Source of the DNA: Candidatus Gastranaerophilales bacterium
Lineage (GTDB): Bacteria > Cyanobacteriota > Vampirovibrionia > Gastranaerophilales > Gastranaerophilaceae
Length of the DNA stretch: 49,396 nucleotides
NCBI GenBank assembly: GCA_944322675.1
Contig: CALUPO010000015.1
Span: 1 to 49,396, forward strand
Direction of reading: 5' to 3'
Shown: positions 38,873 through 45,575 of the stretch, in pieces
How positions within the stretch are numbered: the first letter of the stretch is position 1
How the letters are laid out: each line of letters opens with the position of its first letter
Notes under the pieces: generated by a model
Database searches by the model: none
Told to the model about the DNA's origin: nothing
What the model saw: only the letters and a program-made list of their open reading frames with translations
Translations under genes and position numbers: made by a program

Positions 38873-39460
38873 TTGATTACAATTCTTGATTATGGAGCAG
38901 GCAACGTTCGAAGCATCGGGAATATGCTCAAATTTTTAGGTTGTGATTATAAAATTAGTGATAATATTGATGAAATTAAAAAAGCTAAAGCTTTGATTTT
39001 CCCCGGACAGGGGCATTTTGAACAGGCTATAAAAAATCTTGAAAATAAAAATCTCATTCAACCTTTAAAAGATTATATAAATTCAGGAAGACATTTTTTG
39101 GGCATTTGCCTCGGTTTTCAGGTGCTTTTTGAAAAAAGTGAAGAAGCCCCTCAAATTGAAGGTTTGTCTATACTTAAAGGTGAGGTTAAAAAATTTCCGA
39201 CAAAAAAAATTCCACAGGTAGGATGGAACAAAATTGAAGTAACTTTAAATAATTCATATCTTACAAATGATTATTTTTATTTTGTTAATTCATACTATGT
39301 CAAACCTTATGATTGTAATATAATCTCATCAAATAGCTATTATTATGGTGACTTTTGCTCTTCCATTGAAAAGGATAATATTTGTGCCTGTCAGTTTCAT
39401 CCCGAAAAAAGCAGCGAAGCAGGCATTAAATTTTTTCAAAAATGGATAGAGAAAATTTAA
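38873..39460 (+). CDS. hisH: Imidazole glycerol phosphate synthase, glutaminase subunit
   Basis: A 195-residue class I glutamine amidotransferase that feeds ammonia to HisF in histidine synthesis. The start LDYGAGNVRSI, nucleophile Cys79 in GICLGFQ, and His176/Glu178 in CQFHPEKSS are conserved. The start is TTG 38873 after AAAGGATG. No other his gene is adjacent, so hisF must be elsewhere. Its end overlaps the convergent unknown gene by 4 nt. Confidence 0.93.
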   Translation: MITILDYGAGNVRSIGNMLKFLGCDYKISDNIDEIKKAKALIFPGQGHFEQAIKNLENKNLIQPLKDYINSGRHFLGICLGFQVLFEKSEEAPQIEGLSILKGEVKKFPTKKIPQVGWNKIEVTLNNSYLTNDYFYFVNSYYVKPYDCNIISSNSYYYGDFCSSIEKDNICACQFHPEKSSEAGIKFFQKWIEKI

Positions 39461-40041
39461 GCTATACCATCAACTTTTTTGGAGGTGTTTCTTTTATCCA
39501 CATTTCGCATAGCCTGTGCAAAATTATAGGAATGTATATTTAAATCAAGAGTTCTTTGTGCGGTTTCACCGGTTAAAACAGGGTCTATTTGTTCTAAATA
39601 TCCTGTAATATCCGGAACAAGACTTTTTGCAAAATTTATAGCTGTGCTTTTATATAATTGACGACTTCTTTCACCAAAGTTATCATTAAAATAATTTGTT
39701 ATAAAACTTGATACATTTTCAAAAAAGCTTTTTGTTTCAACTTTTTCACCAAGTCCATCAAGTGAATTATTTTTAAAATATTCTGCAACAAAAAATGAAA
39801 GTTGTTCAAAAAAAGCTTCTGCAGCTTCTTCAACTTGAGGTGTTGAATCAGTTTGCCCTTCTTTTACAAAATAATCCGCTACATTTTCAACAAGTTGCCC
39901 AAAAAAATCCGATGTAACTTGTTCTATATTCTTTTTCTTACTATTATCATTGCTGTCATCATGTTTTGCAGCGTGAGAACCGTAGGTGAATATATTTTGA
40001 TTATTTTGTACATTTGTATTGTTATTTACCTCAGAAGCCAT
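39457..40041 (-). CDS. Protein of unknown function with three FF-YF helical repeats
   Basis: A 194-residue soluble protein from ATG 40041, chosen because AAGGGAT lies 8 nt upstream (an in-frame start at 40086 lacks one). After an Asn/Ser/His-rich head, three similar helical units occur: SDFFGQLVENVADYFVKEG, EAFFEQLSFFVAEYFKNNS and KSFFENVSSFITNYFNDNF. The C-terminal part is helical (KSLVPDITGYLEQIDPVLTG). No membrane segment or known domain is seen. The repeats suggest an amphipathic-helix bundle that binds a surface or self-assembles. Confidence 0.68.
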   Translation of the reverse strand: MASEVNNNTNVQNNQNIFTYGSHAAKHDDSNDNSKKKNIEQVTSDFFGQLVENVADYFVKEGQTDSTPQVEEAAEAFFEQLSFFVAEYFKNNSLDGLGEKVETKSFFENVSSFITNYFNDNFGERSRQLYKSTAINFAKSLVPDITGYLEQIDPVLTGETAQRTLDLNIHSYNFAQAMRNVDKRNTSKKVDGIA

Positions 40042-40186
40042 TTTTATATCCCTTAAAAATATATCTTTAATATACTTTATCGACATTTTTTCATCTTTCT
40101 TTAATTTTTTTAGATTATTTTAAATAATTCGATACAAAAATTTACAAATTAAGATATAATGAATAATTTCATTTACAATATTTATT

Positions 40187-40834
40187 ATGGAAACAGATAT
40201 TATCAAAAATATTCAAAAATTGAAAAATAATAATAGTTTATGTACAATAAATCCAGTTGAACAAATTGATGTTTTTCTTTATGACAATTTAAACAACACT
40301 TCTAATTTTTCTCTTTTTAATAACTTTTGGATTAAATGTAGAGTTGAATATAGTGATTCATTTATTTTTGATTTTCTTGTTAATTTTTTAACGATACAAA
40401 ATAAAGGAAAAATTACAAATGGTGTGAATGTTGTTAAAATATTTATATTCTTATTTAATCAATATAAAAATAAAAATATTATTGATGAGTTTTTTATTCA
40501 AATTAGAAAGTATATAAAATATTATAATATTATTATTAATGAAAAAACCAAAAATGAATTAATAAACAGCCTATTGCACAAAATAAACAAAAGTCATAAT
40601 AACGAAGCATATCCATACTTGATGGAAGTCTTTGAAGATTATGAATATGCCCGTATTAATACAGAAATGCTGATTGAAATTTTAAATACCGTAATTTTAT
40701 TTATTGAACATAGAAATGACGATAACATAAATACAATAGTAAAAAGTTTTGATGAATTAAGTGATGAAATAAATAAAATGTTACTTCTAAAAGTTTTAAC
40801 ACCAAAAATCGTCAAAGTTAAAGTTGAAAACTAA
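40187..40834 (+). CDS. Uncharacterised helical protein
   Basis: A 215-residue, Asn/Ile/Lys-rich protein predicted to be mostly alpha-helical, with no signal peptide, membrane span or recognised motif. Helix patterns (IIDEFFIQIRKYIKYYNIII, EAYPYLMEVFEDYEYARI) could be HEAT- or ARM-like. ATG 40187 has no ribosome binding site; TATAAT at 40155-40160 may be its -10 box. It is divergent from the FF-YF protein and its end touches hpt. Confidence 0.6.
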   Translation: METDIIKNIQKLKNNNSLCTINPVEQIDVFLYDNLNNTSNFSLFNNFWIKCRVEYSDSFIFDFLVNFLTIQNKGKITNGVNVVKIFIFLFNQYKNKNIIDEFFIQIRKYIKYYNIIINEKTKNELINSLLHKINKSHNNEAYPYLMEVFEDYEYARINTEMLIEILNTVILFIEHRNDDNINTIVKSFDELSDEINKMLLLKVLTPKIVKVKVEN

Positions 40835-41376
40835 TTTTCAAAATAACCTATATAAGGAATATTACGTAAATATTCTTTATAATCAAGTCCATAACCCACA
40901 ACGAATTTATCATCAATTTCAAAACCTGAAAAATCGGCATCAATATCATTTTGACGTGCACATTTTTTATTTAACAAAGCTGCAAATTTTAATGACTTCG
41001 GACAATATTTAAGATTTATTAAATCAGTTATAAATTTTGCAGTGTGACCTGTATCAAGAATATCCTCAACTATAAGTACATTTTTATCTTTCAAATCCGG
41101 CAAAGTTAAATCAATTGTGTTTATTTTTCCACTTGATTCAAAGTTATTTCCATAACTTGAAATTCTTATAAAATGTAAAACAACAGGCAAATTTAACTTC
41201 TTAATAAGATCACAACAAAATAAAGCTGACCCTTTTAGAACACAAATAACATGCAAATCTTCATCTTTAGAAGGATGACTGTTTTCAATTTCAATTGCAA
41301 GTTCTTTTATTCTTTTTTGTATTGTGTTTTCATCAAATAAAATTTTTAAATCTTTTAAATTTTTATCAAGTTTCAT
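40831..41376 (-). CDS. hpt: Hypoxanthine phosphoribosyltransferase
   Basis: A 181-residue purine-salvage enzyme converting hypoxanthine or guanine to IMP or GMP. The PRPP loop VLIVEDILDTGHTAKFI, the N-terminal VICVLKGSALF strand and the C-terminal FVVGYGLDYKEYLRNIPYIG motif are diagnostic. ATG 41376 with AAAAGG 9 nt upstream is used; an upstream TTG at 41394 lies inside tilS. It follows tilS in the widespread tilS-hpt arrangement. Confidence 0.93.
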   Translation of the reverse strand: MKLDKNLKDLKILFDENTIQKRIKELAIEIENSHPSKDEDLHVICVLKGSALFCCDLIKKLNLPVVLHFIRISSYGNNFESSGKINTIDLTLPDLKDKNVLIVEDILDTGHTAKFITDLINLKYCPKSLKFAALLNKKCARQNDIDADFSGFEIDDKFVVGYGLDYKEYLRNIPYIGYFEN

Positions 41377-41380
41377 AATA

Positions 41381-42766
41381 TTAAACCTTTTCAATAACTA
41401 TTTCATATATTTTTTTACTGTGTTTATAAACTTTTAATTTGTCACTTAGCCCTACATTTTTTGCCCACAATATTTCATTATCTTTCGCTAATAAAACTAT
41501 TTTATCACGATTATGTTTTAAAACACCTCTATTAATAAAGTATTTTTTTAACTTCATTGACCCTTCACGAAAACCAAAAGGTTTTATAACGTCGCCATTT
41601 TGCCTGTATCTTATGCAAAATGGCGACGTTACTTCATCAAAAGAAACAATTGCACAATTTTCATTTTCTTTTGGAAAAATGTTAGGAATTTTTTCAAGTT
41701 TTTTAAAAAAAATTTTATAATTTTCAAATGTATAAATTTTTTCAAAATCATTTATATAACAACATTCATCACTTTTATTTTCTTTTTTTAACAAATAAAA
41801 ATATGAATTATTTGAAAATAAAAACAAATTGTTGGATATTGACATAATTTTTCCGTTTTTTAATGTAGAATTTTTTTGAATAAAATAACAAATTTCATCA
41901 ATTTTTTTATAGTTCCAATCAATTTTGTTTTCTTTTAAAAGCTGTGCTATAAGGCGATTTTTTATAGCTTTATCAAGTTCAAGAAAATTTGTTGTTTTAT
42001 ATTTTGGAAAGGTATCATCACAATTTAGTATTATTTTTTTTAAAGAATCTTTTAAAACTTTATCAAGAAAATCCTCATTGTCATTTATTGTTCTAATTAA
42101 ATTTGAAACAGCATTTTGATAATTATGATTAATATAAAGAAAATGTTTTGTCATTTTATTTCTTATATAGTTTCTCAAGAAGAAAGATTGGAAGTTTGTT
42201 TTATCATTAACATAAGTAAGTTTATGGAATTTTAAATATTCTTCAATATCCACACGATTTGTATTCAAAAGAGGTCTAAAGATTTGAAGATTTTCATCTT
42301 TTCTAAAAGGTAAAATACACTTTAAACCATATGTGGAAGTTCCTTTTAAAGTGCGGTAAAAAAAAGTTTCAATATTGTCATCTTTATTGTGTGCAAGGAA
42401 AAGAGCATTTGTGTTGTGTTCAAGAGCCATTGTTTTAAAAAAATTATACCTTTGCTCCCGTGCTTCAAGTTCGGATAATTTTTTATTTGATTTAAGTTTG
42501 TGGGAATAAAAATCGATATTTAGATTTTTAGAGAAATCAAGACAAAATTTTTCATCGTTATCGCTTTCAACACCTCTTTGATTGTGGTTTAAGTGAAGAG
42601 CAATAATTTTTATGTTTAATTTGTTATTTTTAATAACATTATTAAGTGCAAAAAGTAAAGAAGTTGAATCTGCACCGCCTGAAAAACCTGCAAGTATTAT
42701 TTTAAATTTTTCTTGAATATTATATTGTAATAAAAAATTCAAAATATTATTTTCTAACTTTTGCAT
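41381..42766 (-). CDS. tilS: tRNA(Ile)-lysidine synthase
   Basis: A 461-residue PP-loop ATPase that converts cytidine-34 of tRNA-Ile(CAU) to lysidine. The PP-loop is SGGADSTSLLFAL (about 30-42), with HLNHNQRG, REQRYNFFK and LAHNKDDNIETFFYR following, and a C-terminal RYRQNGDVIKPFG segment in the substrate-binding domain. A perfect 17-bp inverted repeat lies within the codons for that last segment. The start overlaps ldpA by 13 nt. Confidence 0.93.
   Translation of the reverse strand: MQKLENNILNFLLQYNIQEKFKIILAGFSGGADSTSLLFALNNVIKNNKLNIKIIALHLNHNQRGVESDNDEKFCLDFSKNLNIDFYSHKLKSNKKLSELEAREQRYNFFKTMALEHNTNALFLAHNKDDNIETFFYRTLKGTSTYGLKCILPFRKDENLQIFRPLLNTNRVDIEEYLKFHKLTYVNDKTNFQSFFLRNYIRNKMTKHFLYINHNYQNAVSNLIRTINDNEDFLDKVLKDSLKKIILNCDDTFPKYKTTNFLELDKAIKNRLIAQLLKENKIDWNYKKIDEICYFIQKNSTLKNGKIMSISNNLFLFSNNSYFYLLKKENKSDECCYINDFEKIYTFENYKIFFKKLEKIPNIFPKENENCAIVSFDEVTSPFCIRYRQNGDVIKPFGFREGSMKLKKYFINRGVLKHNRDKIVLLAKDNEILWAKNVGLSDKLKVYKHSKKIYEIVIEKV
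41587..41631. repeat. Perfect 17-bp inverted repeat inside tilS
   Basis: TAACGTCGCCATTTTGC (41587-41603) and its exact reverse complement (41615-41631) flank an 11-nt loop. In mRNA this makes a stable hairpin covering codons of the conserved SPFC...RQNGDVI segment. Confidence 0.95.
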
Positions 42767-43686
42767 AATTCAACAAGCCTTTTAGCATTTATTATTGCAG
42801 TATCCATATTAACATTTTCAATAATTTTTCTTGCATAACTTCCAACTGTAATGCCTGTGTATTTAATGTTAGAAAGCGAAGCAAGTTGAGCTGTTTTTTC
42901 ATTTGTACCGCCTGAAATAAAAAGGTAAAAACAGGGCAATTTCAAATACTTTTGGAATAATTGAGAGCAAGAAACAGCATTTAAAGTTGAAAAATAATTA
43001 TTATCTCCACCTGACATTGAAAAACCGTCAGCTTGAATTATAAGTGGTTTATTTTGTCTTTTTTTTATAAAATATTCCGTTAACTTTAACAATTTATTTT
43101 CAGATAAATACTCCCTTGAAAAACAAACAGAAATTATTCCATCAAAATGTGTATTTAAATTATCAAAGGTTTTTTTTATTGTTTTTGTTTTGGAAATGGA
43201 AGCATGAAGTTCAATTATATTTATATTATTTTTATTTGCAAGTTTAACTGCATCAAATTCTGAAATTGAAAATTTGTTCTTGTATGAAATGGCTTTGCAC
43301 TTACATTTTTGACAGCCTATACATTTATTTGAATCAATAAGTACGTTTTTTTCCTTAATATAAATAGCTTTTTGTGGACAATATTTTAAACATTTATAAC
43401 ATTTTTTACATTTTTGATTATTAACAAAAGCACACATATTGTGTTTATCATCGTTTAAAGCAAAACTTAAACAATAGACAAAGTTTTCGATATTAAAATT
43501 TTTATTTTTTAATGTTTCAAAAACAAGATCAATTGCCCTTTGATCACATGGAAGGTCAATAATGTCCATTTTAGTGTTTGAATATATTTGAATAATATAC
43601 TTAATTTGTTCATAATTTAAATTTCCAAGCCCGAGAACAAGCTTAAATAAATGACCATAATTAAGTTTATCAATAATGTATTCCAT
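42754..43686 (-). CDS. LdpA-like 4Fe-4S protein
   Basis: About 310 residues. A central ferredoxin-type region (near residues 88-125) has CKKCYKCLKYCP and CIGCQKCKCKAI, enough for two 4Fe-4S clusters. The C-terminal domain has QADGFSMSGGDN, FISGGTNEKTAQLA and ITVGSYARKI, which match LdpA, the cyanobacterial redox-sensing clock-input protein, in order and spacing. No kai gene is present here. ATG 43686 lies 7 nt after an extended -10 box; ATG 43695 overlaps that box. It heads the ldpA-tilS-hpt operon. Confidence 0.78.
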   Translation of the reverse strand: MEYIIDKLNYGHLFKLVLGLGNLNYEQIKYIIQIYSNTKMDIIDLPCDQRAIDLVFETLKNKNFNIENFVYCLSFALNDDKHNMCAFVNNQKCKKCYKCLKYCPQKAIYIKEKNVLIDSNKCIGCQKCKCKAISYKNKFSISEFDAVKLANKNNINIIELHASISKTKTIKKTFDNLNTHFDGIISVCFSREYLSENKLLKLTEYFIKKRQNKPLIIQADGFSMSGGDNNYFSTLNAVSCSQLFQKYLKLPCFYLFISGGTNEKTAQLASLSNIKYTGITVGSYARKIIENVNMDTAIINAKRLVELCKS

Positions 43687-43693
43687 AAAAAAC

Positions 43694-43702
43694 ATTATAT
43701 CA
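43694..43702 (-). promoter_or_regulatory. Extended -10 promoter of ldpA
   Basis: On the minus strand TGATATAAT reads as TGN-TATAAT, a full extended -10 element. ATG 43686 is 7 nt downstream, so the transcript is probably leaderless. Confidence 0.55.
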
Positions 43703-43787: not shown

Positions 43788-45575
43788 ATGGATAATAAAA
43801 ATATAAGAAATATAGCAATAATAGCACACGTAGATCATGGTAAAACAACACTTGTTGATTGTATGTTAAGACAATGCGGTGTGTTTCGTGAAAATGAAGT
43901 TGTTGAAGATAGAATTTTGGACAATAACGACATTGAACGCGAACGAGGAATAACAATACTTGCAAAAAATGTATCAGTAAGTTACAAAGGATACAAAATA
44001 AATATTGTAGATACACCGGGACACGCTGATTTTGGAGGGGAAGTTGAACGCGTTTTGGGAATGGTCGATGGTGCCTTGCTTATTGTTGATGCTGCTGAAG
44101 GCCCTATGCCGCAAACAAGATTCGTGTTAAAAAAAGCTTTAGAACTTGGCATTAGAGTTATTGTTGTTGTAAATAAAATTGATAAGCCGCAAGCTGAACC
44201 TGATAAAACAATTGATAAGGTTTTTGATTTATTTACGGAATTAACAACTGATGAATATTTGATTGATTTTCCTATAATATACTCATCAAGTCTTCAAGGT
44301 TATGCAAAAAAAGAACTTGAAGATGAAAATAAAGATATAATTCCTTTGCTTGACAGTATAATTGAAAACATTAAACCGCCTCAGGGGGATAAAACAAAGA
44401 ATTTACAATTTCATGTAACGACTCTTGATTATAACGAATATGTAGGACGAATAGCAATTGGTCGGGTTGTAAACGGTATAATCAATTCAAATGAAATGGT
44501 ATCTTTAATAAAATCCGACAGTTCAATACAAAGAGGGAAAATTGTCAAGTTATTTGGATTTAAAGACTTAGGACGTGTTGAAATAGCAAGTGCAAGTGCA
44601 GGTGATATAGTTGGTGTTGCAGGTTTTGCTGATATTCAAATAGGTGAAACTATCTCATCACTTGATAATCCGCAGGCTTTGCCTTTGATAAAAATTGACG
44701 AACCTACATTGCAGATGAATTTTCAGGTGAATAATTCTCCATTTGCAGGTCAAGAAGGCAAGTATGTGACAAGCAGACAAATAAGGAAACGTCTTTATCA
44801 GGAGCTTGAAAAAAATGTAAGTTTACGTGTTGAAGATACTGATAATACAGATGTTTTTCGTGTATCCGGACGTGGTGAGCTTCATCTTGGTATACTTATT
44901 GAAACAATGCGTCGTGAGGGGTATGAGTTTCAAGTTTCTAAACCTCAGGTTATTTTAAAAACCATTGATGAAAAAATACATGAACCTTTTGAAAATCTTT
45001 TTATTGATGTTCCTGAAGAATATGCAGGTGCAACAATAGAACGTTTATCCGGTCGTAAAGGAGAATTGCAGCAAATGCAAGTTGTTGGAACAAGAACAAA
45101 TATGCGATTTGTTATTCCTTCACGTGGTTTGATAGGGTTTAGATCCGATTTTATCAGATTAACACGTGGCGAGGGCATTATGAATCATACGTTTTATGAA
45201 TATCGTCCATATTGCGGAGATATAGAAAAACAACGTAACGGGTCAATTATTGCTCATGAAACAGGTGAAGCTATACCTTATGCTTTAAATCAGTTTGAGG
45301 ATAGAGGTGTGTTTTTTATTGTTCCAAAAACCAAAGTTTATCGCGGTATGATAATTGGTGAAGCAAATCGCCCTCAAGATGTTGTTGTTAATATTTGTAA
45401 AACAAAAAAACTCACAAATATGCGAAGTGCAACAGCAGATGTTATGGTGACTCTTCAAGCACCTAGAATTATGTCACTTGAAGATTGTCTTGAGTATATT
45501 CAAGATGATGAACTTGTTGAAGTTACACCTAAAAATGTAAGAATACGCAAATTTGATATAAATAAAATAAGATAG
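43788..45575 (+). CDS. typA: Translational GTPase TypA/BipA
   Basis: A 595-residue ribosome-associated GTPase. G1 is AHVDHGKTTLVD, G2 includes RERGITI, G3 DTPGHADFGGEVER and G4 NKID. The EF-G-like domains and the TypA-specific C-terminus (IRIRKFDINK type ending) follow. It acts in ribosome assembly and stress adaptation. TATAAT about 40 nt upstream may be its -10 box. It is followed by valS after 24 nt. Confidence 0.97.
   Translation: MDNKNIRNIAIIAHVDHGKTTLVDCMLRQCGVFRENEVVEDRILDNNDIERERGITILAKNVSVSYKGYKINIVDTPGHADFGGEVERVLGMVDGALLIVDAAEGPMPQTRFVLKKALELGIRVIVVVNKIDKPQAEPDKTIDKVFDLFTELTTDEYLIDFPIIYSSSLQGYAKKELEDENKDIIPLLDSIIENIKPPQGDKTKNLQFHVTTLDYNEYVGRIAIGRVVNGIINSNEMVSLIKSDSSIQRGKIVKLFGFKDLGRVEIASASAGDIVGVAGFADIQIGETISSLDNPQALPLIKIDEPTLQMNFQVNNSPFAGQEGKYVTSRQIRKRLYQELEKNVSLRVEDTDNTDVFRVSGRGELHLGILIETMRREGYEFQVSKPQVILKTIDEKIHEPFENLFIDVPEEYAGATIERLSGRKGELQQMQVVGTRTNMRFVIPSRGLIGFRSDFIRLTRGEGIMNHTFYEYRPYCGDIEKQRNGSIIAHETGEAIPYALNQFEDRGVFFIVPKTKVYRGMIIGEANRPQDVVVNICKTKKLTNMRSATADVMVTLQAPRIMSLEDCLEYIQDDELVEVTPKNVRIRKFDINKIR

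Follow-up and report, generated by a model that had tools for sequence, protein, structure and literature searches.

A divergent, probably paralogous LdpA-family gene beside tilS and hpt in Gastranaerophilales, and its possible place in a wider family of redox enzymes

LdpA (light-dependent period A) is a clock protein known from Synechococcus elongatus and other cyanobacteria, where it senses the redox state of quinones and sets the level of CikA. Other barrel proteins of interest here are Ycf23, a protein of plastids and cyanobacteria, and the phosphate-binding TIM barrels of hexulose-6-phosphate synthase, ribulose-phosphate epimerase and TrpA, which lack a ferredoxin insert. To our knowledge, no enzyme activity is known for any member of the LdpA family. 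In published work, LdpA is treated as a redox sensor (PMC13421787, PMC6378743) and stated to be unique, or exclusive, to cyanobacteria (PMC5520375), while how it acts in the clock of cyanobacteria is recognized as an unsolved problem (PMC13421787). Our literature search found no paper tying LdpA to Melainabacteria, Gastranaerophilales or a TIM barrel.

The window analyzed here is a 49,396-nt stretch from Candidatus Gastranaerophilales bacterium, in which an LdpA-family gene stands in the following setting:

42754..43686, minus strand: LdpA-family coding sequence, 310 aa (open reading frame, LdpA_C over the cut-off, CircClkLdpA alignment, dN/dS)
41381..42766, minus strand: tilS, tRNA-Ile lysidine synthetase (TIGR02432, 163.9 bits against a cut-off of 93.6)
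40831..41394, minus strand: hpt, hypoxanthine phosphoribosyltransferase (TIGR01203, 185.2 bits against a cut-off of 150)
43788..45575, plus strand: bipA/typA, divergent, upstream and outside the operon (BipA_C, E 1e-44)

The LdpA-family reading frame has its stop at 42754, and an alternative in-frame ATG at 43695 would lengthen the product to 313 aa. Measured against its counterpart in a congeneric genome, it shows a dN of 0.18 and a dS of 1.0 (dN/dS about 0.18), as expected of a real gene under purifying selection. A reading of the DNA made from its letters alone (hereafter, the sequence-only reading) had named the product an LdpA homologue, and the profiles agree: Pfam LdpA_C (PF12617) covers residues 151-294 (E 9e-15, 55.1 bits against a cut-off of 22.2), and the alignment to NCBIfam CircClkLdpA (NF045992) spans residues 5-293 (E 1.9e-21). 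At 76.6 bits, the latter match falls below the equivalog cut-off of 450 bits, and LdpA_Fe-S-bd (PF25160) is likewise below its own (9.8 versus 27.6 bits). Fer4 is over its cut-off (25.1 versus 21.1 bits), and the middle of the protein carries two ferredoxin motifs with eight cysteines, the second shortened to CX2CX2CXC. A sequence search of solved structures returned mostly ferredoxins and ferredoxin-like domains. The same early reading had suggested a profile search that might place the protein in another ferredoxin family with no LdpA C-terminal match; LdpA_C was found over its cut-off instead, and together with the whole-length alignment this rules out a plain ferredoxin of another family. 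Judged from sequence, the gene encodes a full-length member of the LdpA family and most likely a divergent, Gastranaerophilales-specific paralogue.

A scan of named genomes returned 346 relatives, 80 of which were kept for comparison. Those named outside the phylum include the isolate Methanocalculus taiwanensis and other Methanomicrobiales, Omnitrophota, Elusimicrobia, WOR-1/Saganbacteria, delta-proteobacteria and single cells of Pelagibacteraceae. Although the names on metagenome-bin records can err, one of these relatives is an isolate and the groups are internally consistent, so that the family likely reaches well beyond cyanobacteria. In unrooted trees, we observe three clades. Clade I comprises photosynthetic cyanobacteria and the majority of the phylum's other lineages; clade II brings together the copies from outside the phylum and two genomes with Sericytochromatia as their record name; and clade III contains Gastranaerophilales plus one record labelled Magasanikbacteria. 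Profiles of clade I and of clades II/III (the latter including the window protein) align over 327 columns in HHalign with an E of 2e-75. Single cells of Prochlorococcus also carry the non-canonical, clade II type, and directly 3' of this copy lies a second, strongly diverged LdpA-like gene (69-139 bits; L158:8021-8869, L167:5980-6837, L169:8038-8874 and L170:8110-8976).

The genomic contexts agree with the trees, with an AAA/R3H ATPase gene beside clade I, sugar genes around clade II, and tilS-hpt beside the window type only. The AAA/R3H gene lies within 6 kb and on the same strand at 21 of the 22 clade I loci from non-photosynthetic lineages and at 16 of the 23 from photosynthetic ones, whereas it was so placed at none of the examined loci outside clade I, making it a strong candidate, from gene order, for the partner of clade I LdpA. 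At most of these loci, as at L124:5880-8512, it lies directly downstream of the canonical ldpA. Around the clade II copies, 49 loci were compared, and the recurrent neighbors encode a KdsB-like cytidylyltransferase (37/49), a HAD protein (35/49), an HpcH/HpaI aldolase (31/49), an HMGL aldolase (29/49) and a TIGR04326 surface-carbohydrate protein (24/49). At the M. taiwanensis locus (L179:5252-13822) and about 30 similar loci in archaea and bacteria, the cluster consists of HMGL aldolase, LdpA-like, HAD, HpcH, KdsB-like and TIGR04326 genes, and its HMGL aldolase has an extra C-terminal domain. Clusters of this type probably make a CMP-activated sugar acid, with the LdpA-like protein probably taking part; a limited literature search found no description of this combination of HMGL, LdpA-like, HAD, HpcH and KdsB-like genes.

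The AlphaFold2 model of the window protein (pLDDT 94.4, pTM 0.91) is a complete (beta/alpha)8 TIM barrel, with the two-cluster ferredoxin inserted after barrel strand 3 on the active-site side. Its parts map to the window as follows:

43450..43686, minus strand: barrel strands 1-3, residues 1-79, with invariant K15, D44 and S74; DUF561/Ycf23-like (AlphaFold2, conservation)
43294..43449, minus strand: ferredoxin insert, residues 80-131 (Fer4 over the cut-off, conserved cysteine columns, a gap when aligned with Ycf23)
42805..43236, minus strand: LdpA_C domain, residues 151-294, strands 4-8 (Pfam E 9e-15, AlphaFold2 model)
43003..43035, minus strand: QADGFSMSGGD, residues 218-228, at the end of strand 6 (Q218, D220 and G221 invariant)
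42880..42915, minus strand: SGGTNEKTAQLA, residues 258-269, after strand 7 (G259 and G260 invariant in 80/80; position from the model)
42826..42843, minus strand: GSYARK, residues 282-287, after strand 8 (G282 and R286 invariant in 80/80)

The nearest solved folds are hexulose-6-phosphate synthase, ribulose-phosphate epimerase and TrpA (Z about 17 over about 200 residues). The window protein shares its fold with these phosphate-binding barrels at only 8-14% identity among the matches listed, and as the Z values of TIM barrels are all similar, the fold does not name the reaction. Within the family, conserved glycines follow strands 7 and 8, and SGGTNEKTAQLA and GSYARK are likely the predicted phosphate sites. 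Residues identical in all 80 sequences are K15, D44, S74, H82, C99, E159, H161, Q218, D220, G221, G259, G260, G282 and R286, and the [4Fe-4S] motif cysteines of the insert are C93, C96, C99 and C103, followed by C122, C125, C128 and C130. The ferredoxin core, QADGFSMSGGD, SGGTNEKTAQLA and GSYARK, which the sequence-only reading had picked out as the LdpA architecture, hold up, as all three motifs lie on family-conserved columns and all eight cysteines are present. By predicted secondary structure, conserved residues stand at all eight strand ends, most of them invariant and kept even in fast-evolving members; the one at the end of strand 5 is conserved in clades II and III only. The window type also shows distinctive changes in strand 1 (C18L and A20L), and its substrate may therefore differ or its activity may be lost.

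A ferredoxin set over a barrel with a conserved lysine, acidic residues, a histidine and a glycine-rich site of the phosphate-binding type points to an enzyme that is supplied with electrons and has a small phosphorylated molecule as its substrate. In such a scheme, the LdpA family would be redox enzymes in which the ferredoxin passes electrons to the phosphorylated molecule, the glycine-rich ends of barrel strands 7 and 8 would hold it, and the invariant Lys, Asp, Ser, Glu-x-His and Gln-x-Asp residues would work on it, with the conserved strand-end residues predicted from the fold to converge in one pocket.

The barrel of the LdpA family is also, by profile comparison, a remote homologue of Ycf23. 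The full barrel aligns with Ycf23 in HHalign (E 3.8e-6, probability 87) with the ferredoxin as an insertion, a domain absent from Ycf23 and present in the window protein. DUF561 (PF04481) matches the window protein over residues 8-55 only (22.4 bits against a cut-off of 21.6), as well as 5 of 20 other LdpA-family members. Membership in DUF561/Ycf23 itself is ruled out by the partial extent of this match and by the separate Ycf23 in the genome. That Ycf23/DUF561 gene (G000:C1:133250-133960, L248) is a true one, scoring 215 bits in a non-photosynthetic genome.

Within the trees, the window protein belongs to the Gastranaerophilales clade with high support (98/99, and 100/100 under a C20 mixture model), in a subclade of nine members (100/89), and the clade as a whole adjoins the non-cyanobacterial surface-sugar copies in unrooted trees. 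The residues tell a similar story: the protein has G21, N22, S186, R191 and S258, which are typical of clades II/III, and lacks M72 and Q256, both fixed in clade I only. Like the clock protein, it has the full-length architecture, the two ferredoxin motifs and the invariant residues; it differs in scoring only 77 bits against CircClkLdpA, whose equivalog cut-off is 450, in having no AAA/R3H neighbor, and in falling in another clade, and its genome differs from the setting of clock LdpA in having no KaiB and no KaiC over the cut-off. On these grounds of sequence and context, the window protein probably does not correspond to the LdpA of the clock. With the surface-sugar proteins of M. taiwanensis (L179), WOR-1 (L182) and Elusimicrobia (L156), it shares full-length homology and N22, S186, C188 and R191; those genes sit in sugar clusters, whereas the window gene lies outside any such cluster in a genome without the HAD partner. 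No HMGL, HAD, HpcH and KdsB-like sugar cluster was found in the gene's neighborhood, no homologue of the sugar-cluster HAD in the window genome, and only one weak, 24-bit match to an HMGL-type aldolase there; the genome's KdsB-type genes sit away from the LdpA-family gene. Its AAA/R3H gene is retained on contig G000:C4 with no LdpA beside it. Among the other genomes, G152 carries two copies, one A-type and one tilS-type, and a genome of the same family as the window genome (G182, L232) has the LdpA-like, HAD, HMGL and HpcH set.

Our preferred reading, to which we give a probability of roughly 55%, is that the window gene is a divergent paralogue in a family of redox enzymes, descended from the surface-sugar branch and now a housekeeping enzyme co-expressed with tilS and hpt, with no tie to a clock. 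Its ancestry would most likely lie in the sugar branch, followed by loss of the sugar partner genes. One might argue instead for a vertically inherited, fast-evolving LdpA that has left the vicinity of the AAA/R3H gene and remains a redox sensor tuning partner proteins, as has been proposed for Synechococcus. The full-length homology to LdpA_C and CircClkLdpA fits such a history, as does the lack of a clade I copy in the Gastranaerophilales genomes sampled for the tree, since displacement then needs no extra loss. Approximately unbiased (AU) tests also leave room for it: a tree in which only the window type is shifted into clade I is not rejected (p 0.37), and neither is one that joins it to clade I after removal of long branches and under a mixture model (p 0.27). 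A tree that unites every clade III copy with the rest of the class in clade I, however, is rejected (p 0.007), which makes simple vertical descent unlikely, and the missing clade I residues (M72, Q256), the presence of G21, N22, S186, R191 and S258, and the sugar-type cluster of relatives in the same family (L232) all speak against it. We regard vertical descent as an unlikely account. As for the monophyly with cyanobacterial LdpA that the sequence-only reading had looked for, the best trees place the protein elsewhere with high support, while the AU tests of the window type (p 0.37 and 0.27) do not reject the alternative.

The operon itself, proposed at the outset, is upheld by the arrangement of the frames. 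The genes ldpA, tilS and hpt are co-directional, the stop of ldpA overlaps the start of tilS by 13 nt, and hpt either overlaps tilS (with a TTG start) or begins 4 nt after it (with an ATG start). The order ldpA-tilS-hpt is kept in eight of the nine subclade members, representing 8 genomes of 7 genera. Scans for promoters and terminators gave numbers of sites not above those expected from shuffled sequences. Two reading frames of about 210 aa adjoin the operon (39457-40086, minus strand, and 40187-40834, plus strand), with no NCBIfam match over the cut-off. This conserved order of overlapping or adjacent frames is what would favor a redox-linked accessory of TilS or Hpt, serving tRNA lysidine formation or purine salvage. 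We consider such a role improbable: among the loci examined, neither tilS nor hpt is near any LdpA-family gene outside the window subclade, the tilS-hpt pair is common in bacteria without LdpA, and the chemistry of TilS needs no electrons. The earlier suggestion that the protein connects redox state with tRNA modification or with purine salvage has gene order as its basis and is likewise improbable. Under the preferred reading of a housekeeping redox enzyme, the gene would simply be co-expressed with these two neighbors. Least probable is that the window copy is decaying, or has lost catalysis and persists for a structural purpose, a view consistent with the shortened second cluster motif, the long branch and the lost partner genes and at odds with a dN/dS of about 0.18 against the congener and the retention of the family-invariant positions and all eight cysteines.

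The window genome (2.10 Mb, 99% complete) lacks PsaA/B, in keeping with the non-photosynthetic organism that had been assumed, and the suggested search for kai genes detected no KaiB by profile and no KaiC over the cut-off. Across the phylum Cyanobacteriota, 377 of 386 sampled genomes encode an LdpA_C protein, among them all 58 chosen from lineages taken as non-photosynthetic; PsaA/B is absent from the 39 of these 58 that were tested. KaiB is over its cut-off in just 2 of 64 tested genomes from lineages taken as non-photosynthetic. KaiB over the cut-off lies on G013:C17 and G096:C13, whose genomes belong to the phylum and lack PsaA/B, and that of G013 adjoins a KaiC-like gene. Clade I LdpA in the non-photosynthetic lineages adjoins the AAA/R3H gene, with PsaA/B absent where tested and KaiB nearly always absent. 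These copies support a clock-independent original role better than the window gene does. The older, clock-independent role put forward for the window gene thus gains ground from clade I in other non-photosynthetic lineages, nearly all without KaiB, and loses its first exemplar: canonical LdpA survives in those lineages, so the window gene is not the ancestor's relic.

An enzyme-like family that extends beyond cyanobacteria and occurs without a clock implies that timekeeping was probably not its original job. More tentatively, and at somewhat less than even odds, LdpA would be one branch of an unrecognized family of ferredoxin-TIM-barrel redox enzymes found in archaea and many bacterial phyla, near-universal in Cyanobacteriota since before photosynthesis and Kai, and later borrowed by the clock. 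If this is true, a non-cyanobacterial branch of the family helps to make an activated surface sugar. The data also argue against the published restriction of LdpA to cyanobacteria (PMC5520375), a statement in need of revision. For the cyanobacterial clock, the enzyme-like fold, the conserved residues, the near-constant AAA/R3H gene partner and the clade I members in non-photosynthetic lineages suggest testable answers on how LdpA acts. Of greatest value is the finding that LdpA resembles the enzymes of a widespread family, since this offers a concrete route to its action in the clock.
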